DNA from: Rhizomicrobium palustre
GTDB taxonomy: Bacteria > Pseudomonadota > Alphaproteobacteria > Micropepsales > Micropepsaceae
DNA: 64,000 nt
Assembly (NCBI RefSeq): GCF_011761565.1
Contig: NZ_JAASRM010000001.1
Location: 1,798,139-1,862,138, forward strand
Direction: 5' to 3'
Notes under the pieces: model-generated
Told to the model about the DNA's origin: nothing
Database searches by the model: none
What the model saw: the letters and a program-made list of their open reading frames with translations, nothing else
Part shown: positions 51,836 through 64,000 of the stretch, in pieces
Numbering within the stretch: position 1 is the stretch's first letter
Layout of the letters: each line of letters begins with the position of its first letter
Made by a program: the position numbers and the translations under genes

Positions 51836-51852
51836 TATAATCTGTCATACAG
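51836..51852 (+). promoter_or_regulatory. Candidate gluconate-operon -10 box with overlapping GntR-type operator
   Basis: A perfect TATAAT at 51836-51841 is immediately followed by the palindrome CTGTCATACAG (51842-51852), where transcription would start; the -35 is weak. GT-N3-AC spacing fits FadR-subfamily operators. A related TCATACCGCA block occurs upstream of the TonB receptor at 54,644. A repressor here would block transcription initiation. Confidence 0.5.
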
Positions 51853-51912: not shown

Positions 51913-51972
51913 ATGACCAAGCGTTACGCTCGAGTTTTCTGTCCGAAGCGGCTGTTTCATGCTCACGGCTGA
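51913..51972 (+). CDS. Possible 19-codon leader peptide overlapping gntP
   Basis: ATG at 51913 follows an excellent GGAGGGGCGAGG ribosome site and encodes MTKRYARVFCPKRLFHAHG, then TGA. It overlaps the gntP start (ATG at 51959) by 14 nt in another frame, while gntP itself has no clear ribosome site. This arrangement fits translational coupling, in which terminating ribosomes restart at gntP. No attenuator hairpin is visible. It could also be chance. Confidence 0.4.
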   Translation: MTKRYARVFCPKRLFHAHG

Positions 51973-53299
51973 CGTGCAACTCGCGCTAGCAGCAGTTTTC
52001 GGAGTGGCTCTGGCGATTCTGATGATCGTGCGCGGGCGCTTTCATCCTTTTGTGGCGTTGCTCTGTGGCGCGTTCGTCATTGGGCCTCTCAGCGGGCTTT
52101 CGCTGATCGATACCGAAAAGGCGATTCAAAAAGGCGCCGGCGATGTTCTCGGAAGCATCGGCTTGGTAGTGGCGTTGGGCCTTGCTTTGGGCACCATGCT
52201 GCAGATTTCCGGTGGCGCATCCGCTCTGGCGCGCTGGATGATTGGCCGGCCCGAAGCGCGCCGGGCGCCATGGATGAGCTTGGCGGTTGCGCTGATTATC
52301 GGTTTGCCGTTGTTCTTCGAGACCGGGCTTGTACTGCTGTTGCCGATTATCGCGGGCGCTGTCGCGGCATTGCCCCAAGGCGAAAAGCGCGATTACCTGC
52401 TTTTGACCATAACGCTTTCCGCGCTCACCGGGCTTTCGGTCACGCATGCTTTGATTGTGCCCCATCCCGGCCCGCTTCTTGCGGTGGCCACACTGCACGC
52501 GGATGTGGGGCGCACCATGCTCCTTGGCATGCTCGTTGCGCTGCCTACCGCGATACTCGCAGGCCCCTTGCTTTCGCTCTTCACCGCGAAAGGTCTGCGT
52601 CTCTCCATGCCGACGCTGGTCGCCCAAGCAGAAACTATCGCCGCGCCGCCAACCATTCGTGCGCTGATTGTTGTGCTGCTGCCGGTTGTTTTGATCGCGA
52701 GCGGGCAGCTTCACGCCATTTTTCCGAAGAGCGCCTTCGCGGCTTGGGTCTCGGCGGCGTCCAATCCGGTGTTCGCGCTGCTGCTCGCCTGTCTTGTCGC
52801 CCTGCCACTTCTCTTCGGGCGGCAGTTGCGCAAGGCCCAGCTACATGAGCTGATCTGGTCTGAAACCATGAAGCCGGTGGGGACCATCCTGCTCTCGATC
52901 GCGGCGGGTGGCGCGTTGAAACAGGTGCTGGTGAGCGCCGGCATGTCCGATGTGCTGGCCCGCTTGGCCGCCCAGGGATCGCTTTCGCCCATCATCTTGG
53001 CGTGGGCTATCGCGGTAGCCATTCGCTTGGCTACAGGCTCGGCGACGGTGGCCACCATCACCGCAGCGGGTGTTATGCCGGGCGTCGTGGTCTCAACGGG
53101 CGTGTCGCCAGAATGGGTGGTGCTCGCCATCGGTTCCGGCTCGGTGTTTTTCTCTCATGTCAACGATCCTGGCTTCTGGCTGGTGAAGAGTTATCTTGGC
53201 ACTTCCACGCCAGCGACCTTTCGAACTTGGTCTGTGCTTGAAACGGTGATCTCGCTATGCGGACTAGCTTTGGTACTGGTGTTCAGCCGGCTCATCTGA
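51959..53299 (+). CDS. gntP: GntP-family gluconate:proton symporter
   Basis: 446 residues with about 12 membrane segments; RGRFHPFVALLCGAFVIGPL and VVALGLALGTMLQISGGASA near the N-terminus, LSVTHALIVPHPGPLLAVAT in the middle and FFSHVNDPGFWLVKSYLG near the end are GntP-family blocks. Imports gluconate or a related aldonate. It heads a gntP-gntR unit with gntK convergent beyond. Start may be coupled to the leader frame. Confidence 0.92.
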   Translation: MLTADVQLALAAVFGVALAILMIVRGRFHPFVALLCGAFVIGPLSGLSLIDTEKAIQKGAGDVLGSIGLVVALGLALGTMLQISGGASALARWMIGRPEARRAPWMSLAVALIIGLPLFFETGLVLLLPIIAGAVAALPQGEKRDYLLLTITLSALTGLSVTHALIVPHPGPLLAVATLHADVGRTMLLGMLVALPTAILAGPLLSLFTAKGLRLSMPTLVAQAETIAAPPTIRALIVVLLPVVLIASGQLHAIFPKSAFAAWVSAASNPVFALLLACLVALPLLFGRQLRKAQLHELIWSETMKPVGTILLSIAAGGALKQVLVSAGMSDVLARLAAQGSLSPIILAWAIAVAIRLATGSATVATITAAGVMPGVVVSTGVSPEWVVLAIGSGSVFFSHVNDPGFWLVKSYLGTSTPATFRTWSVLETVISLCGLALVLVFSRLI

Positions 53300-53313
53300 A
53301 TCGGGGACTTGCA

Positions 53314-53985
53314 ATGAGCGGAAGACGCCTTGCAGATCAGGCCTATTCAGGGATTGTCGAGTACATCACCTCGCAGAAAATGTCGGTGGGTGATCGCTTG
53401 CCTGCTGAAACACAGCTGGCGGAAATGTTCGGAATCTCGCGCACCATCGTGCGGGAGGCGCTGGTGCGCCTGGCTTCCGACGGCATTACCGAAGCTCGTC
53501 GTGGCTCGGGTTCTTTTGTCAAGAATAAGCCCTCTGACCGGCTGATCGCCTATACAGGTAATCTCTCGGCGGCCTTGGGTACCTATGAAGTGCGCTTCGT
53601 CCTCGAAACCGAAGCCGCGCGTCTCGCCGCCATGCGCCGCTCCGAACATGACATGATGAATATCGAAGAAAGTATGGGGCGCTTGCGGCATGCGCTGATG
53701 ACCAACGCTCCCGCCCATCATGAGGATATGGAGTTACACCGCCAGATTGCGCTTGCTACCGCCAATCCCACCTTCATGATTGCGCTCGATGCACTGCGCG
53801 AGCAGGTGGATAAGATCATGCAAGCCGGTGTCGATATTTCCCGCTCCCGTTCCCCTGACATTATCGGCGCGATGCTGCGCGAGCACGAGGCTATTGTCGA
53901 CGCTATCCGGGTGCGCGATGCCGATAGTGCCGCGCTTGCCATGCGCTGGCATCTGGCAGAAGGGCGAAAAAGGCTGATGCCGTAG
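53314..53985 (+). CDS. GntR/FadR-subfamily regulator (FCD domain)
   Basis: 223 residues from the ATG at 53314 (GGGGA upstream). N-terminal winged HTH: LPAETQLAEMFGISRTIVRE, ALVRLASDGITEARRGSGSF. The C-terminal FCD ligand domain shows RFVLETEAARLAAMR and three His that could hold a metal (ELHRQIAL, EHEAIVD, MRWHLAEG). Follows gntP after 14 nt and is the expected local gluconate regulator. Candidate operators: 51842 and 54644. Confidence 0.9.
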   Translation: MSGRRLADQAYSGIVEYITSQKMSVGDRLPAETQLAEMFGISRTIVREALVRLASDGITEARRGSGSFVKNKPSDRLIAYTGNLSAALGTYEVRFVLETEAARLAAMRRSEHDMMNIEESMGRLRHALMTNAPAHHEDMELHRQIALATANPTFMIALDALREQVDKIMQAGVDISRSRSPDIIGAMLREHEAIVDAIRVRDADSAALAMRWHLAEGRKRLMP

Positions 53986-53986
53986 A

Positions 53987-54589
53987 TTATTTGGTGCCGT
54001 TTGGCGGAAGGGCTTGGATCCAGGCGATGATGTCCTGGCAAATTGCCTCGGGTGGCTTCTGGCCATCCAGGGTGAGAACGCCTTCCTCCGGTGCCGGGCG
54101 CTCGAGAGTGTCAAGCTGGCTGCCCAGAAGGCTTGCCGGCATATAGTGGCTTTTGCGTTCAGAGAGCCGGCGCAGCAATTCCTCGCGTGAGCTATCCAGC
54201 AGAACAAAGCATACGGGCGACGTAATCGCGTGGCGCAGCCGATCGCGATAGGCGTGTTTTAAGGCTGAGCAAGACGCAACGCCAATACCATGCTCGGCAA
54301 TGGTGCTATTTACCGCCTCACCAATCCTGTCCAGCCATGGCCAGCGGTCGTCATCATTCAAGGCAATGCCTGCCGCCATTTTCGCAATGGATGCAGGCGC
54401 GTGATAGAGATCGCCTTCGATCTGCGGGCAACCAATAAGCTCCGCCAAGGCCTTGCTAACAGTCGTTTTCCCGCTGCCGCTGACACCGATGACAAAGATC
54501 GCGAACGGCCGCGCGACAGCCGGAATGTTACCCATACGGTTTGCCGACTCCATGTTTTGCGCGGTGTTGTGCTGTTCGATTGTGTGCAT
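53987..54589 (-). CDS. gntK: Gluconokinase (GntK type)
   Basis: 200 residues. Walker A GVSGSGKTT at 35-43, CPQIEGDLYHAPASIAKM (substrate region) and ALKHAYRDRLRHA match the shikimate-kinase-like gluconokinases. Phosphorylates gluconate to 6-phosphogluconate, feeding the Entner-Doudoroff or pentose-phosphate route. Convergent with the GntR-family gene, 1 bp between stops, and divergent from the TonB receptor across the palindromes at 54,609-54,656. The start could be Met19. Confidence 0.92.
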   Translation of the reverse strand: MHTIEQHNTAQNMESANRMGNIPAVARPFAIFVIGVSGSGKTTVSKALAELIGCPQIEGDLYHAPASIAKMAAGIALNDDDRWPWLDRIGEAVNSTIAEHGIGVASCSALKHAYRDRLRHAITSPVCFVLLDSSREELLRRLSERKSHYMPASLLGSQLDTLERPAPEEGVLTLDGQKPPEAICQDIIAWIQALPPNGTK

Positions 54590-54656: not shown

Positions 54657-54749
54657 CAATGCTGAAGCCCGAATGGGTCTGCTGGCGCATTGAGCGGTGT
54701 GCCCACCAAAGAGGGCGATACATCAGGACTACGCGGGGAGTGTAAAGCC

Positions 54750-57692
54750 ATGAAACATTGCGATCAAGCAACCCAAAAATGGAAACGGGATGCGATTTTC
54801 CGCGCCTGTCTGGCATCGGCGAGCTATGTGGCAATACTCGCGGCGGTCCCAGCCGCGGCACAATCGGCAGGCGGTGCTGACACACTTGAAACCATCGTCG
54901 TTACCGGAACGCGTATTCAGGCGAGCGGATTCACCGCGCCAACGCCGACTCAAGTGATCGGAACAGAGCAGATCGAGAAGAATGCTCAGCCCAACATCTT
55001 CACCACGATCGCTCAATTGCCATCGCTGCAGGGCTCGTCTGGTACAGCGGTCAATACCTTCTCCACGTCCTCCGGGCAGCAGGGACTTAGCTCCTTTTCA
55101 TTACGCGGCCTGACGCCTATCCGCACCTTGACCCTTCTTGACGGTCAGCGTGTGGTGGGCGCAAACGTCACCGGCGTGCCCGACATCAGCTTGTTTCCAC
55201 AGCTTTTGGTGCAGCGTGTCGATGTCGTGACGGGCGGTGCCTCAGCGTCTTACGGCTCGGACGCGGTGGGCGGCGTGGTCAACTTCATCACCGATAAGCG
55301 TTTCACGGGCATCAAAGCTAATGTTCAAGGCGGCATCACCACCTATGGTGACAACGCGCAATATCTCTTGCAGGCGGCGGTTGGACATAATTTCCTCAAT
55401 GACCGGCTGCATGTCCAAGTTTCGGGCGAATATGATCATGAAGACGGCATTCCGCCGGGCGGCTTTGGCGAAAATGCTCCGAATGGGCGGAGCTGGTATC
55501 ACGCCACCACACTGGTCAACACGGGCATCACCAATAACGGTTCTCCGCAATATCTCTTGCGCGATCACGCGCAAGCCACCGGCTATTCGAAATACGGTCT
55601 GATCTCCGCCGGGCCTCTGCAGGGCACAGCTTTTGATGCCAACGGCCAGCCCTTCTCATTTCTCTACGGCTCCAATGGCGTGCCCGCCAAGGATGCCAGC
55701 GGCAATGTCACTGGCTGCTATATCGGTTTTTGTCTCGGTGGGGATCGCTCCGGCGCTGTCGGTATCGGGGCATCGCTTCAGTCAGGCATCAAGCGCCTCG
55801 ATGGCTACACGCGTATCGGATTCGATCTCGATTCCAACAACGAGATTTACGCTACCTTCAATATGGCCCGGGTTACCTCCAACAATCAGCCCAATCCCGG
55901 TGCCCAGAAATCGGGCCTGACGATGTCCTGTTCGAACCCCTATGTTCCGACGTTGATTCAGCAGGCCTGCACCGCCAACAACATCACGAGCTTCAAATAC
56001 GGCACCGACAACGCCATGTTGCCGAACATCCATGTCAACACATCACGCCGTCAAATGCGCGCGGTGTTCGGTGCGGATGGCAAGCTCTCTCTGGGTGATA
56101 CGTCCTGGCGCTATGACGCCTATTACGAGCATGGCGAGGAAATCACGGATATTCGCGTCCGCAACATCCTGCTGACAAATCGCTATAACGCGGCGATCAA
56201 TGCCACTCTGCTGAATGGTCAGATCGTTTGCGCCGATGCGACCGCGCGCGCCAATGGCTGTCAGCCGCTCAACATTTTCGGCGGCCTGGCGCCAAGCCCC
56301 TCTGCGCTTTCCTATATCGTTCCGGATAAAGGACCTTTCCAGCACACCCATCAGCAGCAGGATGTGGTGAGCCTGAACCTCAACGGCGAGCCTTTCGCCT
56401 TATGGGCAGGGGATGTTTCGGTGGCGTTTGGCGGTGAATACCGGCGTGAGAATTATCGCGTCAACGCCGATCCCTATGGCGCGGGCATCACGGCGACCAA
56501 CACCTATAACAGCACCTATCCCGCAGATCCCGTTTTGGCGACCGCTGGCAGCAACTGGTTTGCGGGCAATTACCACGACGGCACCGGCACATATGATGTG
56601 AAGGAAGCCTATCTCGAAATCAACGCCCCCTTCCTCAACTCGCCGCAATTTGGCAAAGCCAGTCTCAACGTGGCGGGCCGCTGGACCGATTACTCCACCT
56701 CCGGCACGGTCTACACCTGGAAGATTGGTGGTACCTGGGATACGCCGCTGGAAGCGGTGCGCCTGCGCGCGGTAATGTCGAACGACGTGCGCGCGCCCAA
56801 CCTGTCGGAGCTCTTCGCCGCGCCCACAACGACGACGGTGCCGAGCTTCACCAATCCCTTCAACAAGACCTCGGTCACTATTCTGCAGAACACGATCGGC
56901 AATTCGGCTCTGAAGCCTGAAATCGCCCGTAATATCGAGGCAGGTATCGTTCTGTCGCAACCGAGCTGGCTGCCAGGCTTCTCCGCTTCCTTTGATTACT
57001 ACCGCATCAAGCTGACCAAGGGTATTTCGAGCCTCACCGCGGATCAGATCGTTAATTTCTGTTTCAACGGTATCAATCAGACCTGCGGCGCATTCAATTT
57101 CAATCCGGCCTCCGGCCTTCCTTTTGTGAATGTGCAGCAGTTCAATCTGGCATCGATCTTCACCGAGGGCTTCGACTTGGAGGGCAGTTACCAGTTCGAT
57201 CTGCCCGATATGGTGCCTGGCCACTTCACTCTGCGCGGGCTCGCGACGAACATCGGCACCTTCCTCACCGATCCTGGCATTCCGGGCACCATTCCGCAGC
57301 AAACCGCGGGCACCAACTCTGGCGCAACCCCGCATTGGAAATTCCTGATGACCCAAAGCTGGGATAACGGCGTCTTCAGCTTCAATCTGCAGGAACGCTG
57401 GTTTACCGATGGCGTAATCGACCGCAAATATGTGGTCTGCCAGACGGGCTGTCCGGTTTCGACAGGTAATAACCCGACACTCGATAACAATTTCATGAGC
57501 GGGGCGTTCTATCTCGATGTCGGTGGTACCTACAGCTTCACCGATTCCATGACGGCCTACTTCAAGATCGACAATTTGTTCGATCGTGATCCGACGCCGT
57601 CACCACAGACCAATACCGGCCTCGATACCAATCCAGCGCTTTATGACATTGCCGGCCGGACGTTCCGGGTCGGCGTGCGGTTCAGCATGTAA
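54750..57692 (+). CDS. TonB-dependent receptor, likely carbohydrate/glucan uptake
   Basis: 980 residues from the ATG at 54750. A Sec signal region (about 1-38) is followed by a TonB box-like ETIVVTGTRI, the plug domain (FTTIAQLPSLQGSSG, LRGLTPIRTLTLLDGQRVV, YGSDAVGGVVNFIT) and a long beta-barrel ending in the aromatic strand RTFRVGVRFSM. Actively brings large ligands across the outer membrane with TonB-ExbBD energy. It is 8 nt before the beta-helix/propeller gene, so the two form an operon and probably a substrate-specific uptake system. Confidence 0.92.
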   Translation: MKHCDQATQKWKRDAIFRACLASASYVAILAAVPAAAQSAGGADTLETIVVTGTRIQASGFTAPTPTQVIGTEQIEKNAQPNIFTTIAQLPSLQGSSGTAVNTFSTSSGQQGLSSFSLRGLTPIRTLTLLDGQRVVGANVTGVPDISLFPQLLVQRVDVVTGGASASYGSDAVGGVVNFITDKRFTGIKANVQGGITTYGDNAQYLLQAAVGHNFLNDRLHVQVSGEYDHEDGIPPGGFGENAPNGRSWYHATTLVNTGITNNGSPQYLLRDHAQATGYSKYGLISAGPLQGTAFDANGQPFSFLYGSNGVPAKDASGNVTGCYIGFCLGGDRSGAVGIGASLQSGIKRLDGYTRIGFDLDSNNEIYATFNMARVTSNNQPNPGAQKSGLTMSCSNPYVPTLIQQACTANNITSFKYGTDNAMLPNIHVNTSRRQMRAVFGADGKLSLGDTSWRYDAYYEHGEEITDIRVRNILLTNRYNAAINATLLNGQIVCADATARANGCQPLNIFGGLAPSPSALSYIVPDKGPFQHTHQQQDVVSLNLNGEPFALWAGDVSVAFGGEYRRENYRVNADPYGAGITATNTYNSTYPADPVLATAGSNWFAGNYHDGTGTYDVKEAYLEINAPFLNSPQFGKASLNVAGRWTDYSTSGTVYTWKIGGTWDTPLEAVRLRAVMSNDVRAPNLSELFAAPTTTTVPSFTNPFNKTSVTILQNTIGNSALKPEIARNIEAGIVLSQPSWLPGFSASFDYYRIKLTKGISSLTADQIVNFCFNGINQTCGAFNFNPASGLPFVNVQQFNLASIFTEGFDLEGSYQFDLPDMVPGHFTLRGLATNIGTFLTDPGIPGTIPQQTAGTNSGATPHWKFLMTQSWDNGVFSFNLQERWFTDGVIDRKYVVCQTGCPVSTGNNPTLDNNFMSGAFYLDVGGTYSFTDSMTAYFKIDNLFDRDPTPSPQTNTGLDTNPALYDIAGRTFRVGVRFSM

Positions 57693-57700
57693 GTGGGGGA

Positions 57701-60700
57701 ATGACGGTGTTGCGCGCGATACTTCTTGGCTGTGTCCTGGCTCTTGGTTTGGTTCAAACCGCACAGGCGCAAGCATCCCCGTCATCCACCTCCGTTTTTC
57801 AATCGGCGCCGCCTGAACCTGGCGCCATCACCGTGACCGGGAAGGGTGATGGGCAAGCCGACGATACGGCCGCGCTCCAAGCGGCCATAGATAAAGCAGC
57901 CGACGGCGGCGGTATCGTCTTTCTCCCCCCTGGGCGATACCGCATCAGCCGCACGATCCTTGTATGGCCGGGCGTCAGGATCTATGGCGTCGGCGCGTCG
58001 CGCCCGGTCCTTTTTTTAGGGCCTAATACGCCGGGTTTTCAGCGCGGCGTGGCCAACATGGTCGTCTTCACCGGTGCCAAGCGCGGCGCCATAGAGCATG
58101 TGCCCTTTCCGCCGCCCAGCGTCGTGCCGTTTGATCCAAAGGTGGCGGATGCTAATTCCTCCACTTTCTATTCCGCCATCAGCAATGTGGATGTGGAGAT
58201 CGGAGAGGGCAATCCTGCCGCGGCCGGAGTGCGCTTGCGCATCGCGCAGCACGCGTTTCTTACCCATATGGATTTTCATCTCGGCTCCGGCTTCGCGGGC
58301 ATATATCAAGCGGGAAATCTGGTCCGCGATGTGCGCTTCTTCGGTGGCCGCTATGGCATTGTCAGCGAGAAAACCTCACCAGCGTGGCAGTTCACCATTC
58401 TGGATTCGGTTTTCGAAGGCCAGAAGAACGCCGCGATCCGCGAGCATGAGCTAAGCCTGACGCTCGTCAATGTCACCATGCGCAATACGCCCGTCGGCAT
58501 CGAGATTGATCCCGGCTATAGCGACCGCTTATGGGGCAAGGATGTCCGCTTCGAAGGCGTACGCCAAAGCGCAGTTCTTATCTCGGAAGAGAAGAACGTC
58601 CAGACACAGATTGGTTTTGAAAATGCGTTGGCCGCCGATACGCCAGTCTTCGCGCGCTTCCGGGAGAGCGGCAAAAGCGTAGCGGGCAAGGGGCGCTATT
58701 ACCGCGTCACAGATTTCAGCCATGGGCTTGCGGTGCCCGGTCTTGGCCAGATGGGCAAGATCAACACCAAAGCTGATATCACTGGGCTCGATAGTCTACC
58801 GCCGCCGCGCGCCGATGCGGTGCGTGCCCTGCCGCCAGTATCTGAATGGGTCAGTGTGAAAAGCCTGGGCGCCAAGGGCGATGGGCAGGCCGACGATACC
58901 GCTGCGCTGCAGAAGGCTGTCGATAGTCATCGCGTGGTCTTTCTACCGATGGGCAATTACAGTGTGAACACCACTCTGCATTTGAAGTCCGATACGGTTT
59001 TGATCGGCCTGCATCCCAACCTCACTCAGATTTTTCTCCCCGAAGAGACGCCCGCCTATAAAGGCGTGGGCGGCCCCAAGGCGCTGATCCAATCGGCCGA
59101 GGGAGGTGACGCGATCGTCTCGGGCATCGGCATCTTCACCGGCGGCATCAACCCGCGAGCCACGGGGCTACTGTGGATGGCGGGCGAGCATTCGCTGGTC
59201 GACGATGTGAAATTTCAGCTCGCACTCAAAAACGAGTTCTTCAGCGGTGCGCGGCCCACGCCTTTCACCGCCGCCCAGACCGCCATGAATGTGCCTTATC
59301 AGATTTTCGGCACCAAGCCTGAGCCGCGCTGGGATGGTCAATATCCAAGCCTTTGGGTGACCAAGGGCGGAGGTGGCACTTTCGTTGGCTGCTGGACGCC
59401 GAACACGCTGGCGGGCGCAGGTTTCTATATCTCCGATACCTCCACGCCCGGTCATGCCTATGAAATGTCGGTAGAGCATCACGTCCGCAACGAGATCGTG
59501 CTGGAACGGGTTTCCAATTGGGAGTTTCTCGCGCCGCAGACCGAAGAGGAATATCGCGAAAGCGGCAATGCGGTGTCGCTCGAGATTCGCGATTCCCACG
59601 ACATTCTGGTCGCGAATTATCACGCCTATCGTGTCACACGTACCCAGCTTCCCGCGCCCGCGGCGGTCCGGCTTTATAATGCGCGCAATATCCGCTTCCG
59701 GAATGTGCAGGTGAATGCCGAGAGTGGCTACACGAGCTGTGAGGGCACGGATTGCATTACCTATCTGCGCGCCAATAAGTACCCCTTCGAGAATGCGATT
59801 GAAGACACGACCTCTGGGCGGAAGCTGCGTGAACGGGAATTCGCCAGCCTCGACATAGGGGCGACGCCAACACCGGCTTCGACGTCTGGGCAAGAGGTGA
59901 AAAAGCTCGCTGATGGCTTCTTCGCACTCGGCGGCGGTGCGGTGGATGCTCAAGGCAACCTCTACTTCATCGACCGCAGCTTCCAGCGCATCTATAGCTG
60001 GTCGAGGGATCGCGGGCTCCAGATCGTGAACAGCCATCCTTTGGACGCAGTGAACCTTGCGGTGGATCGTTCGGGAAATCTCTTGGTGCTATCTTCAGCG
60101 GGCTATGCGGGGGCGGTGTTCTCGCTCGCCCCCAATGGAGAGAGCCTCGTGCCGCTCTCTTCCCAGGCCGTGAACGCTTCCGCCAAAGCGGCTTTCGCTC
60201 TGCCGACCAATTGGTGGGTGAATGGCGAGTTCAAGGATCAATATGTCCCCGCTAAGGACCATTTTGTCACCTTGGCTGAGATGTTCGCTAAAACGGTTTC
60301 GACGGCGCCTGGCAAAGCCTATGTATCACCCGACGGCAGCCTGATTTTGCCTGCCTATCGCACCGTGCATCAGGGACCGCCCGATAATCGCGGCTGGCGC
60401 TTCTCGCCGTCGCTTGACACCTATGGCTTCACCGTCGCCGAACCCGGGGCGCGCATATATATCAGTAATGAATCCGAGGCCCGGACCTACAGCGCGCGGG
60501 TGACGAAGAACGGCACGCTCGCTGATCTTAAGGTTTTCGCCGATCGTGGCGGAGAGAGCGTGGCGACCGATGCTTCGGGAAAGGTCTATCTCGCCAACGG
60601 ACAGATCTTCGTGCATGGGCCTGAAGGTCAAGAACTTGGCCGGATTGATGTCCCTGAGCGCCCGATTCAGTTGGTGCGCGGCAAGGGGATGCTCTTTATC

Positions 60701-60748
60701 CTCACCCATCACAGCCTCTATGCGCTCGGCCTTCCTGGGGCAGAATAA
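57701..60748 (+). CDS. Fusion of two pectate-lyase-like beta-helices and an SMP-30/NHL-like propeller
   Basis: 1015 residues with signal peptide (MTVLRAILLGCVLALGLVQT). Two near-identical openings, GKGDGQADDTAALQAAIDKA at ~47 and AKGDGQADDTAALQKAVDSH at ~393, each start a right-handed beta-helix (about 45-350 and 385-700) of the Pect-lyase-3 type, as in tandem-helix GH55 exo-1,3-glucanases. From ~732 a propeller follows with AVDAQGNLYFIDRSFQRIYS, VNLAVDRSGNLLVLSSAGYA and VATDASGKVYLANGQIFVHG, like SMP-30/gluconolactonase or NHL repeats. Predicted secreted or periplasmic. Catalytic residues cannot be confirmed. The combination with a gluconate regulon is unusual. Confidence 0.82.
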   Translation: MTVLRAILLGCVLALGLVQTAQAQASPSSTSVFQSAPPEPGAITVTGKGDGQADDTAALQAAIDKAADGGGIVFLPPGRYRISRTILVWPGVRIYGVGASRPVLFLGPNTPGFQRGVANMVVFTGAKRGAIEHVPFPPPSVVPFDPKVADANSSTFYSAISNVDVEIGEGNPAAAGVRLRIAQHAFLTHMDFHLGSGFAGIYQAGNLVRDVRFFGGRYGIVSEKTSPAWQFTILDSVFEGQKNAAIREHELSLTLVNVTMRNTPVGIEIDPGYSDRLWGKDVRFEGVRQSAVLISEEKNVQTQIGFENALAADTPVFARFRESGKSVAGKGRYYRVTDFSHGLAVPGLGQMGKINTKADITGLDSLPPPRADAVRALPPVSEWVSVKSLGAKGDGQADDTAALQKAVDSHRVVFLPMGNYSVNTTLHLKSDTVLIGLHPNLTQIFLPEETPAYKGVGGPKALIQSAEGGDAIVSGIGIFTGGINPRATGLLWMAGEHSLVDDVKFQLALKNEFFSGARPTPFTAAQTAMNVPYQIFGTKPEPRWDGQYPSLWVTKGGGGTFVGCWTPNTLAGAGFYISDTSTPGHAYEMSVEHHVRNEIVLERVSNWEFLAPQTEEEYRESGNAVSLEIRDSHDILVANYHAYRVTRTQLPAPAAVRLYNARNIRFRNVQVNAESGYTSCEGTDCITYLRANKYPFENAIEDTTSGRKLREREFASLDIGATPTPASTSGQEVKKLADGFFALGGGAVDAQGNLYFIDRSFQRIYSWSRDRGLQIVNSHPLDAVNLAVDRSGNLLVLSSAGYAGAVFSLAPNGESLVPLSSQAVNASAKAAFALPTNWWVNGEFKDQYVPAKDHFVTLAEMFAKTVSTAPGKAYVSPDGSLILPAYRTVHQGPPDNRGWRFSPSLDTYGFTVAEPGARIYISNESEARTYSARVTKNGTLADLKVFADRGGESVATDASGKVYLANGQIFVHGPEGQELGRIDVPERPIQLVRGKGMLFILTHHSLYALGLPGAE

Positions 60749-61167: not shown

Positions 61168-64000
61168 ATGACTTCACGCATTTCGCGCGCGCGGCCGGCA
61201 TCAGTGCGCCATACCGTTCTGGCGTCTACCGCAACGAGCTTCGCCGTACTTGCCCTAGCGACGAGTGGTGCGTTTGCGCAGGAGCAAATGGAATCGGTTA
61301 CGGTTACGGGTTTCCGTGCCAGCTTGGAAAACACCATCGTCCTTAAGAAAGAGTCGACCCAGATCGTTGAAGCGATTTCGGCCGAAGACATCGGCAAACT
61401 GCCGGATGCCTCGATCGGTGAAGCGATTTCCCGCCTGCCGGGCCTTGCCACCCAGCGCACCAACGGCCGCGCCTCGGACATCTCCATTCGCGGTACCTCG
61501 CCGGACTTCTCGACCACGCTTTTGAACGGCCGCGAGCAGGTCTCGACCAATGACAATCGCTCCGTTCAATTCGACCAGTACCCGGCCGAACTGATGAGCG
61601 GCGTTGTGATCTACAAGACCCCTTCGGCGGACCTCGTCGGCGCAGGTCTGTCGGGCACCATCGACATGCGCACTACCCGCCCGCTCGAATACGATCATCG
61701 AGTTATCTCGTTGAACGTTCGCGGCCAGACCAACTCGCTCGGCGAGCTGAACCCCAAGGAAGGCCAGTATGGCTGGCGTCTCGGCGGCACCTACATCGAT
61801 CAATTTTCCGGCGGCAAGCTCGGCCTGGTGGTCGGTGTCTCGCTGATGGATGACCTCAATCCGTACCAGGAATACGCCTCCTGGGGGTATCCGAATGGCG
61901 GTTGGTGCCGTTCAGCCGCTCCGTGCCCCCCTGCAACTCCCGTTGTTCCGAGCAATGTCGTGGTCCCCGGCGGCGCGAAATTCAACTCGGTCGTGGACGG
62001 CCTCAAGCGCAATGCTGCCCTTGCCACCTTGCAATACCGCCCCAACGAGCATTTTGAATCCACGCTCGACTTCTTCGGTTCGACCTTCCGGGATGACTGG
62101 CGGGTGACCCGCGTCGAAGCGCCGATGTACAACTGGGGCAGTCAGGACCTTCTGCCGGGCTATACAGTCAACAATGGCTATGTCACCGGCGGCACTTTTA
62201 CGCCGGGGGTGCATCAGATCGGTCGCGAAGAATCTGATCGCAAAGACAACGACCTTTGGGCGATCGGTTGGAAGAACACCTACACCAACGGTCCTTGGTC
62301 GGCGATGCTCGATGCCGGATATTCCAGTGTGCAGCGTCATTCGCGCCTGCTCGAAAACTATGCCGGGACGAGCTATGGCGGTGGCGGTGGCGCGGTCGAT
62401 CCAATGCCGTTCACGCTGGACAGCAACATGGTCATGCATGTCGCCCCGAAGCTCGATTACGGCAACTACAGCAACATGCTGCTGGCCGATTCCGGGTGCT
62501 GGGGTAATGTCAATGGTCTAAATTGCGCTCAGCAGGGCTATCTCAAATACGACAAGGTCCATGACCACATGGCGACCTTGAAACTGGAGCTGCAGCGCGA
62601 CCTGGGTGCTGGCTTCTTCAAGGGTGTCACCGCCGGTCTCTATTTCACCAATCGTACCAAGACAAAGTCGACCGACGAATACTTCCTGGTCGTCAAGTCG
62701 GTGTGGGCCGACGCCAACACCTATTACGCGGCGCATGGCAATAGCTATGCGGGTTACACCTTGCCGGTCGGCACGCCGATCCCGGATCAATACCGCACCG
62801 GTGTATCTTCGGGCCTGTCCTACTTCGGCATTCCCGGCTTCGCCTCCTGGAATGCAGACGCGGCCTTTGACGGCGGCTTCTATTCTGCCATTCATAACAC
62901 GGGGCCCTGGGCCTATCAGAAGGGCTACGACGTCAACGAAGCGGTCTATACCGGCTATATCAAGACCGACATTGATACGCTCTTGGCCAATCACGCCCTT
63001 ACCGGCAACATCGGCCTGCAGTTCGTTTATACCCATCAGACATCGGCTGGTTTCGGTGTCTCGTTCCCCAGCAACGCACCTCCAATTGTCATCCCGCTCA
63101 CCGGCGGCTTGAACTACGGCCAGTTGTTGCCGAGCATGAACTTGTCATTCGAAATCAACGACTCCAGCAAGATCCGCCTCGGCGGGGCACGCGAACTGGT
63201 GCGCGCCCGCATGGACCAGATGGTCAACGTCAATTCCTATAGCTTCGGCACCTCCGGCTTCGACCCGGTGACGCTCGCGGATAGTTGCCCGGCCGCAAAT
63301 TGGATGAACTGCAGTCATTGGAGCGGTGACGTAGGCAATCCCAAATTGAAGCCCTGGATCGCGGATGCGGTGGACCTCTCCTATGAATACTATCACGGCA
63401 AGGACACCTATCTGGCGATCGCGGGCTTCTACAAGAATCTCGAAAGCTACATCTACAAACAGACCACGCCGTTCGATTTTACCGGCTATCTCACTCCGAC
63501 CGGGTACAAGCCGAACAGCTACATGGGTTATGTCTCACAAGATGTGAACGGTTCCGGTGGCAACATCGCAGGCATCGAGGTGAGCGGTGCGTTTTCAGGC
63601 AGCGCGCTCTCCGGCTGGCTTGAGGGTTTCGGCCTGACCGGCAACATCTCCTACACCGACTCGAGCATGAAGGGTGTCTCGAATTCGGGCACTGCTACGC
63701 CGCTGCCCGGCCTATCGAAACTCGTCTATAACGGCACGATGTACTACGACAACGAAGGCTTCTCGGCGCGCGTGAACTACAATTTCCGGTCACGTTACTA
63801 CGCCCAGATCAAAGGCTTCGATAACACCTACACAAACAACGAGTTCAAGGCCCAGGCGTGGCTTGGGGCACAGATCGGCTACACCTTCCAGGAAGGCACT
63901 GCCAAAGGTCTGAACATCAGCTTGCAAGCCGACAACCTGCTGCACGCAAAGCAGATGATGTACCATTTCGATGCCGATCCGAATGATACGCGCAACAACC
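61168..64000 (+). CDS. TonB-dependent receptor (Caulobacter/Xanthomonas type), 3' end outside window
   Basis: Starts at the ATG at 61168 (GGGGAGG upstream) and runs off the window after 944 codons with no stop. A signal region with VLASTATSFAVLALATSGAF precedes ESVTVTGFRASLENTIVLKK, the plug with DIGKLPDASIGEAISRLPG and TQRTNGRASDISIRGTSPDF, and the barrel strands. The plug motifs match the TIGR01782-like receptors that carry sugars or plant polymers. Paired with the receptor at 54,750, it points to uptake of a complex carbohydrate. Complete N-terminus, truncated C-terminus. Confidence 0.92.
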   Translation, partial: MTSRISRARPASVRHTVLASTATSFAVLALATSGAFAQEQMESVTVTGFRASLENTIVLKKESTQIVEAISAEDIGKLPDASIGEAISRLPGLATQRTNGRASDISIRGTSPDFSTTLLNGREQVSTNDNRSVQFDQYPAELMSGVVIYKTPSADLVGAGLSGTIDMRTTRPLEYDHRVISLNVRGQTNSLGELNPKEGQYGWRLGGTYIDQFSGGKLGLVVGVSLMDDLNPYQEYASWGYPNGGWCRSAAPCPPATPVVPSNVVVPGGAKFNSVVDGLKRNAALATLQYRPNEHFESTLDFFGSTFRDDWRVTRVEAPMYNWGSQDLLPGYTVNNGYVTGGTFTPGVHQIGREESDRKDNDLWAIGWKNTYTNGPWSAMLDAGYSSVQRHSRLLENYAGTSYGGGGGAVDPMPFTLDSNMVMHVAPKLDYGNYSNMLLADSGCWGNVNGLNCAQQGYLKYDKVHDHMATLKLELQRDLGAGFFKGVTAGLYFTNRTKTKSTDEYFLVVKSVWADANTYYAAHGNSYAGYTLPVGTPIPDQYRTGVSSGLSYFGIPGFASWNADAAFDGGFYSAIHNTGPWAYQKGYDVNEAVYTGYIKTDIDTLLANHALTGNIGLQFVYTHQTSAGFGVSFPSNAPPIVIPLTGGLNYGQLLPSMNLSFEINDSSKIRLGGARELVRARMDQMVNVNSYSFGTSGFDPVTLADSCPAANWMNCSHWSGDVGNPKLKPWIADAVDLSYEYYHGKDTYLAIAGFYKNLESYIYKQTTPFDFTGYLTPTGYKPNSYMGYVSQDVNGSGGNIAGIEVSGAFSGSALSGWLEGFGLTGNISYTDSSMKGVSNSGTATPLPGLSKLVYNGTMYYDNEGFSARVNYNFRSRYYAQIKGFDNTYTNNEFKAQAWLGAQIGYTFQEGTAKGLNISLQADNLLHAKQMMYHFDADPNDTRNN

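Follow-up and report, generated by a model that had tools for sequence, protein, structure and literature searches.

A GH55-type double β-helix fused to an SMP-30-type β-propeller in a gluconate locus of Rhizomicrobium palustre, with a possible role in gluconate supply

The stretch of DNA analysed here (the window, 64,000 nucleotides of Rhizomicrobium palustre contig NZ_JAASRM010000001.1, positions 1,798,139 to 1,862,138) contains a gene for a protein of 1015 amino acids in which a tandem β-helix unit is followed by a β-propeller (window positions 57701-60748, forward strand, ATG start; hereafter the fusion gene). It lies close to genes for the uptake and phosphorylation of gluconate. Examination of its sequence and predicted structure indicates that the exported product is very probably a glycoside hydrolase related to family GH55. 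The explanation that best accounts for the observations overall, to which we assign a probability of roughly 0.4, is that this GH55-related hydrolase supplies gluconate to the cell and that its propeller is not a lactonase.

Domain architecture and the GH55-type unit

Pfam profiles detect PF12708 in two stretches of the fusion protein (8.2e-37). The openings of the two helices had been described in the original prediction as near-identical, and residues 49-60 and 393-404 are indeed identical 12-mers (GDGQADDTAALQ). Two more single PF12708 openings occur in the same genome (G000:C1:2766179-2766361 and 2468705-2468854, both on the reverse strand). The full-length AlphaFold2 model has a predicted local distance difference test score (pLDDT) of 88.7 and a predicted template modelling score (pTM) of 0.90. 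A multiple sequence alignment (A1) was built from the window protein and 56 homologues from Alphaproteobacteria, Betaproteobacteria and Acidobacteriota; these cover query residues 60-980 or more at a BLAST E-value of at most 1e-100. Divided or truncated copies, among them L036, L046, L048 and L050, were excluded. Given that all 57 sequences of A1 display the same architecture at full length, it represents more than a chance arrangement. In some homologues the gene is spread over two open reading frames (ORFs; L036:4980-8002, L046:9986-12980 and L094:1483-4840), a pattern that a frame change or an assembly error could produce.

In a sequence search of solved structures the best matches are GH55 enzymes (3eqn, 5.9e-13; 5m5z, 1.7e-11), and a profile of the 57 sequences matches 5m5z at 3e-23. 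Likewise, residues 33-720 of the model align with 3eqn over 596 residues (VIA-align Z 31.8, root mean square deviation (rmsd) 2.7); the Z-scores are 31.6 to 5m5z and 30.7 to 8jhh (580-598 residues across these three structures), 22.9 to the bacterial GH55 enzyme 4pew and about 16 to single β-helix proteins. According to the available text of PMC10637969, GH55 enzymes are built of two helices that share a single active site at the helix interface. Thus, the proposal of two β-helices as in GH55 holds with regard to the tandem fold, and is refined in that both helices are halves of one unit with one active site. Two separate enzymes residing in the two helices were ruled out, as the alignments to GH55 chains run through both halves as a single unit.

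The residue roles given for MnLam55A in the same available text are general acid (Glu-614), a Glu-591/His-592 pair, relay residues (Gln-172 and Ser-203), an acid-orienting tyrosine (Tyr-617) and Asp-557; the residue indices of the 8jhh chain in our profile alignment agree with the numbering of that text. The fusion proteins have E615 in the place of the general acid, E592-H593 in that of the Glu/His pair and Q183 in that of the relay glutamine. These residues, as well as W552 and W565, are invariant in A1, and the equivalents of all six are retained in three distant relatives of 34-35% identity. The original prediction had suggested a search for the conserved GH55 acid, and E615 is that residue in every one of the 57 sequences.

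The C-terminal propeller

Profiles and structural matches concur that the propeller is of the SMP-30 type, as had been suggested from its SGL/NHL-like repeats. Against the SGL profile (PF08450) the whole window protein scores 20.8 bits and the propeller alone 25.9 bits, just under the cut-off of 26.3, and all 57 members of A1 match it at E-values of at most 0.01 (best 3.9e-20). For comparison we used the proteins of 24 SGL loci, from which three of at least 420 amino acids were excluded; a profile-profile alignment of the propeller with the remaining 21 gave a probability of 99.3%. Residues 727-1014 of the model align with 3e5z at Z 17.5 (212 residues, rmsd 3.1), and the excised propeller does so at Z 17.4. 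Since other propellers (DFPase and NHL) fall within about one Z unit of the SMP-30 matches, the fold alone cannot pick the function of this domain.

The classical SGL proteins keep a Glu (19/21), an Asn (21/21) and an Asp (21/21), in columns which we take to be the lactonase metal ligands and which agree with the ligands listed in the original prediction. At the corresponding columns the fusion proteins have S33/G19/A5 (column 744, Glu position), Y33/N11/H7/F4/L1/S1 (column 908, Asn position; Tyr in the window protein) and Glu in 57/57 (column 952, Asp position; a conservative change). Hence, the sequence of the domain argues against the metal lactonase that was proposed to open an aldonolactone: the Glu is replaced throughout and the Asn kept in 11 of 57. 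Of the pair of outcomes that had been named as refuting the earlier view, the absence of the classical metal ligands from the propeller is therefore what we find, while the helices do hold the GH55 catalytic acids. The propeller has invariant residues of its own in A1, namely W839, D878, R987 and G950-G951-E952, so a second activity in this domain is possible. Unlike the GH55 residues, E952 and H1003 are not conserved in the distant relatives, which have Phe (L147a), Tyr (L147b) and Arg (L148) in column 952; L147a has Glu in column 744. We consider the propeller probably not to be a classical metal lactonase. As it combines an SMP-30 fold with the loss of the Glu/Asn/Asp site, it would most likely bind substrate or build the cleft.

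Association of the fusion gene with gluconate genes

The stop codon of the adjacent TonB-dependent receptor gene lies 8 bases before the fusion ATG on the same strand, consistent with the operon that had been proposed, and profile searches of the window recovered the gluconokinase (GntK), GntP permease and GntR/FCD-type regulator that had been noted as neighbours (Table 1). This setting is widespread among the proteobacterial loci that hold a full fusion gene or pieces of it: a gluconokinase homologue is present in 24 of 28, the other four being L008, L029 and L050, on contigs of 3.5-4.7 kb, and L028, with about 9.7 kb upstream and almost nothing downstream. All 24 gluconokinase-linked loci code for a TonB receptor and 16 for GntP. 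Across Alpha- and Betaproteobacteria the gene order is rearranged and the content is kept, and three annotated plasmid regions carry the same gluconate neighbours; a fourth plasmid match lacks annotation. A GH3-type β-glucosidase homologue is present in one locus (L013) and one plasmid region. The regulators vary, with a GntR-type regulator in 13/24 and a LacI-type one (>50% identity) in two Massilia loci of changed gene order. Two fusion genes are found in 15 of the 24 (L009-L012, L014-L016, L018-L020, L022, L031, L033, L042 and L047); the duplicates fall in different parts of the fusion tree, which suggests that they have different substrates.

Among 96 genomes of the order, a gluconokinase over the cut-off occurs in 12 of the 13 with a fusion match at an E-value of at most 1e-200 and in 11 of the 83 others (Fisher p 2.5e-8), with GntP in 10/13 and 10/83 (p 3.3e-6), both p-values ignoring relatedness; in only five of those 12 genomes does the gluconokinase share a contig with the fusion gene and lie close to it. 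In a tree of the fusion proteins (quick method, midpoint root) the gluconate-linked rows form one clade of 43 rows (40 labelled, three not; support 100 in the Shimodaira-Hasegawa-like approximate likelihood ratio test, SH-aLRT), with Oxalobacteraceae nested inside. Columns 257 and 630 are N and R in 42/42 rows of this clade and in 0/15 of the others (R/H and D/S/A/N/V), a split for which clade history alone could account.

Neighbourhoods in other clades and distant relatives

Elsewhere the fusion gene has other neighbours. A GH30-cluster gene lies directly upstream of it in four acidobacterial loci, and the member tested (L043) belongs to GH30 and is closest to 5ngk (4.6e-83; next 7.2e-50), the endo-1,6-β-glucanase BT3312 in the available text of PMC5481569. 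In L043 a GH28-type gene follows the fusion gene, and in L144 a GH5/CBM4_9 gene adjoins it (with an 85% homologue in L145). In L140-L143 a fusion paralogue lies near a pyrroloquinoline quinone (PQQ) dehydrogenase, a GntR gene and an amidohydrolase with weak similarity to L-fuconolactonase (in L143). These loci also code for neighbours of 300-700 amino acids that have no Pfam match.

The distant full-length relatives (34-35% identity; L147:5242-11288 and L148:6219-9194) are on contigs from human faeces filed as unverified 'Bacteriophage sp.'. They sit behind SusD- or SusC/SusD-type genes, in L148 together with GH2 and alginate-lyase/GH88 genes, and these contigs look like Bacteroidota polysaccharide-locus DNA and not phage. 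A viral origin was rejected, given that none of 151 pattern matches in a scan of viral_contigs was confirmed as a relative and the phage-filed hits examined look like Bacteroidota polysaccharide-locus DNA; so was a phage tail-spike reading, for which the PHROGs matches listed are mainly to the opening 40-60 residues of each helix. A search for the distant branch in 395 genomes of Bacteroidia recovered none at an E-value of at most 1e-60, an empty answer that is uninformative as it had no positive control.

Proposed activity and alternative explanations

As the adjoining uptake and kinase genes serve gluconate, the useful product in the gluconate-linked clade is probably gluconate. A membrane glucose dehydrogenase (PQQ_membr_DH) has no match over the cut-off in this genome, where a weak 18.5-bit match is all that was found, and at an E-value of at most 1e-50 it is missing from four of the five genomes with gluconokinase beside the fusion gene (it is present in G051). 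Glucose oxidation by a membrane PQQ enzyme is thus unlikely here, which favours substrates that already carry gluconate. Oxidised glucan fragments arise from oxidative enzymes in soil and plants. We tentatively suggest aldonate-ended β-gluco-oligosaccharides, for example oxidised fungal or plant β-glucan fragments, as the substrate. Such oligosaccharides would enter the periplasm, in the proteobacterial clade linked to gluconate, through the TonB receptor encoded alongside, and the hydrolase would cut them at the single active site between its two helices. If the GH55 mechanism carries over, E615 would protonate the leaving group and a water positioned by E592 and Q183 would attack the sugar; GntP would then take up the gluconate and GntK phosphorylate it. 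A stricter version, which we regard as doubtful, is that of a new specificity in the GH55 fold: a periplasmic exo-hydrolase acting on gluconate-ended oligosaccharides and feeding gluconate to GntP and GntK, with the propeller as its aldonate-binding part, and for which R630 and N257 would be candidate carboxylate readers. If true, these proposals would tie a GH55-type glucanase to gluconate catabolism, provide a defined locus for the bacterial use of oxidised glucan fragments and present an SMP-30 propeller lacking the classical metal site that has been reused within a glycoside hydrolase. Being compact and present in culturable relatives of Sphingomonas, Caulobacter and Massilia, the locus lends itself to tests by expression and gene removal.

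Several observations weigh against gluconate supply from aldonate-ended substrates. With regard to the active site, the relay serine (Ser-203 of MnLam55A) is lost (column 204: V25/A24/I8), the orienting tyrosine (Tyr-617) is present in the window protein as Y618 but is Tyr in just 5/57, and neither profile alignment places an Asp of the window protein opposite the subsite -1 aspartate (Asp-557). In the alignment with 5m5z this Asp and the second Trp of the aromatic block fall in a shortened loop after W565 and are lost, and in that with 8jhh the Asp corresponds to column 555 (D in 30/57, K in the window protein); as the two alignments disagree, its column is uncertain. The loss of GH55 subsite residues implies that the substrate is probably not laminarin, and the protein is best described as a GH55-related hydrolase with probably altered specificity rather than a proven β-1,3-glucanase. 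With regard to the gene neighbourhoods, gluconokinase is found in 0/19 acidobacterial loci (several on short contigs) and is also lacking at the locus in a second Rhizomicrobium-clade group, so that the fusion proteins may not yield gluconate in general. In four genomes of that group a PQQ dehydrogenase lies 3-6 kb from the fusion gene (521-536 bits, where the TIGR03074 cut-off is 832.65), an arrangement that would suit the oxidation of glucose instead. In the present genome three GSDH matches over the cut-off make a soluble aldose dehydrogenase possible, and the GH2, alginate-lyase and GH88 company of the Bacteroidota-like relatives is a hint of other substrates. From the gene neighbourhoods, with the acidobacterial GH30-cluster genes and the GH5/CBM4_9 gene of L144 as hints, β-glucan is the best-supported, albeit not uniform, broad substrate class of the fusion proteins.

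Four other explanations were weighed against these data. The protein could be an ordinary β-1,3/1,6-glucan exo-hydrolase that frees glucose or gentiobiose, with the gluconate genes co-regulated for the use of free fungal or plant gluconate. The GH55 chemistry, the GH30 and GH5/CBM neighbours, the GH3-type β-glucosidase homologues and the acidobacterial loci without gluconate genes all fit this; however, the glucose-specific subsite residues are incompletely kept and the cytoplasmic uptake and kinase genes alongside are for gluconate, with their content kept across Alpha- and Betaproteobacteria, and we hold it to be rather unlikely. The original prediction implies a relay that we judge unlikely: glucose released by the GH55 half would be oxidised to gluconolactone by a separate periplasmic dehydrogenase, and the propeller would hydrolyse the lactone to the gluconate that GntP and GntK use. 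Although its propeller has an SMP-30 fold whose nearest solved relatives include gluconolactonases and a xylonolactonase, an invariant E952 in the Asp ligand column and, in the distant L147a, a Glu at column 744, the Glu and Asn columns depart from the classical SGL pattern and column 952 is itself variable among distant relatives. The dehydrogenase step could draw on the PQQ dehydrogenases near the fusion gene in the four genomes of the other clade, or on the GSDH proteins of this genome, and is opposed by the lack of PQQ_membr_DH here and in three of the four other linked genomes.

The changed subsite residues could also mean that the helices act by hydrolysis or as a lyase on another glycan, such as a uronic-acid or galactan polymer, their GH55 likeness reflecting ancestry; the GH2, alginate-lyase and GH88 domains near a Bacteroidota-like relative and the GH28-type gene of L043 point the same way. 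Retention of the complete GH55 E-H ... Q-T-E motif, and a window locus in which Pfam and TIGR profiles find no uronate genes, make this improbable. That many β-helix matches are phage tail and adhesin proteins might suggest a non-catalytic surface or binding protein, but such matches mainly cover the 50-residue GDG-DD opening, GH55 chains match both helices and the catalytic positions are invariant, so that this appears the most improbable of the four.

Features of the window

Table 1. Features of the fusion gene and its neighbourhood (window coordinates)
Feature	Position	Strand	Evidence
Fusion gene, GH55-type double β-helix plus SMP-30-type propeller, 1015 aa	57701..60748	+	Pfam, alignment, model
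Probable Sec signal peptide, residues 1-23	57701..57769	+	By eye; low-confidence model helix at residues 3-21
N-terminal β-helix of GH55-type unit, residues ~33-363	57797..58789	+	PF12708, model, structural matches
C-terminal β-helix of GH55-type unit, residues ~381-720	58841..59860	+	Second PF12708 stretch, model, structural matches
SMP-30-type β-propeller, residues ~727-1014, classical metal ligands not kept	59879..60742	+	Profiles, model, structural matches
Q183, aligned with GH55 relay Gln, 57/57	58247..58249	+	Alignment with 3eqn and 5m5z; probable role after available text of PMC10637969
E592-H593, aligned with Glu-591/His-592 of MnLam55A, 57/57	59474..59479	+	Alignment, available text of PMC10637969
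E615, aligned with general acid Glu-614 of MnLam55A, 57/57	59543..59545	+	Alignment, available text of PMC10637969
TonB-dependent receptor; listed TTG start probably too early	54690..57692	+	ORF list, profile
Gluconokinase (TIGR01313, 169.6 bits; no second match over cut-off in the genome)	53987..54589	-	Profile
GntR/FadR-type (FCD) regulator	53257..53985	+	Profile
GntP gluconate:H+ symporter, TIGR00791 337.6 bits (over cut-off); the genome's only PF02447 match at E<=1e-20	51959..53299	+	Profile
Candidate operator CTGTCATACAG upstream of GntP	51842..51852	.	Shared 11-mer found by eye; putative role
Fragment matching small LuxR-type HTH protein, 79% over 57 aa	51465..51635	-	Sequence match

Of the 24 gluconokinase-linked loci, 18 hold the small LuxR-type helix-turn-helix (HTH) protein (65-85% identity), which is represented in the window by a fragment. 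The 11-mer CTGTCATACAG occurs in six of the 28 proteobacterial loci, always with the small LuxR gene on one side and GntP/GntR on the other, and is missing from the other 22, counts that come with no chance control. As a GntR operator, the FadR-type consensus TNGTNNNACNA occurs twice in the window where 4.81 matches would be expected, and is thus not enriched. A second TonB receptor gene starts at 61168 and extends past the end of the window.

Comparison with known systems

The fold and chemistry described here are already known. We found no description of a GH55-propeller fusion, of its residue changes or of its gluconate setting in the open-licence literature, outside which most subscription journals and preprints lie; these three aspects are accordingly the apparently undescribed ones. 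NCBI names three annotated homologues 'glycosyl hydrolase family 28-related protein', a label that reflects the PF12708 opening only; both the fold and the residues indicate GH55 rather than GH28. The 1,6-β-glucan polysaccharide utilization locus (PUL) of Bacteroides, in which the GH30_3 enzyme BT3312 occurs with a GH3 enzyme, resembles the present loci in its TonB receptor and in the GH30 relative beside some acidobacterial fusion genes; the available text of PMC5481569 mentions neither a GH55-propeller protein nor gluconate genes for it. With the SMP-30/gluconolactonase/LRE family (PF08450; 3e5z, 3dr2 and 7plb) the fusion proteins share the propeller fold and an SGL match in 57/57, but they have S/G/A, mostly Tyr, and Glu in place of the ligands Glu, Asn and Asp, and the domain is joined to a glycoside hydrolase. 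With the GH55 enzymes PcLam55A (3eqn), CtLam55 (5m5z), MnLam55A (8jhh) and SacteLam55A (4pew) they share the rib cage of residues 33-720, E615 and E592-H593, and differ in the C-terminal propeller, the lost relay serine, the mostly lost orienting tyrosine, the subsite aspartate (not kept in the window protein) and the genetic setting.

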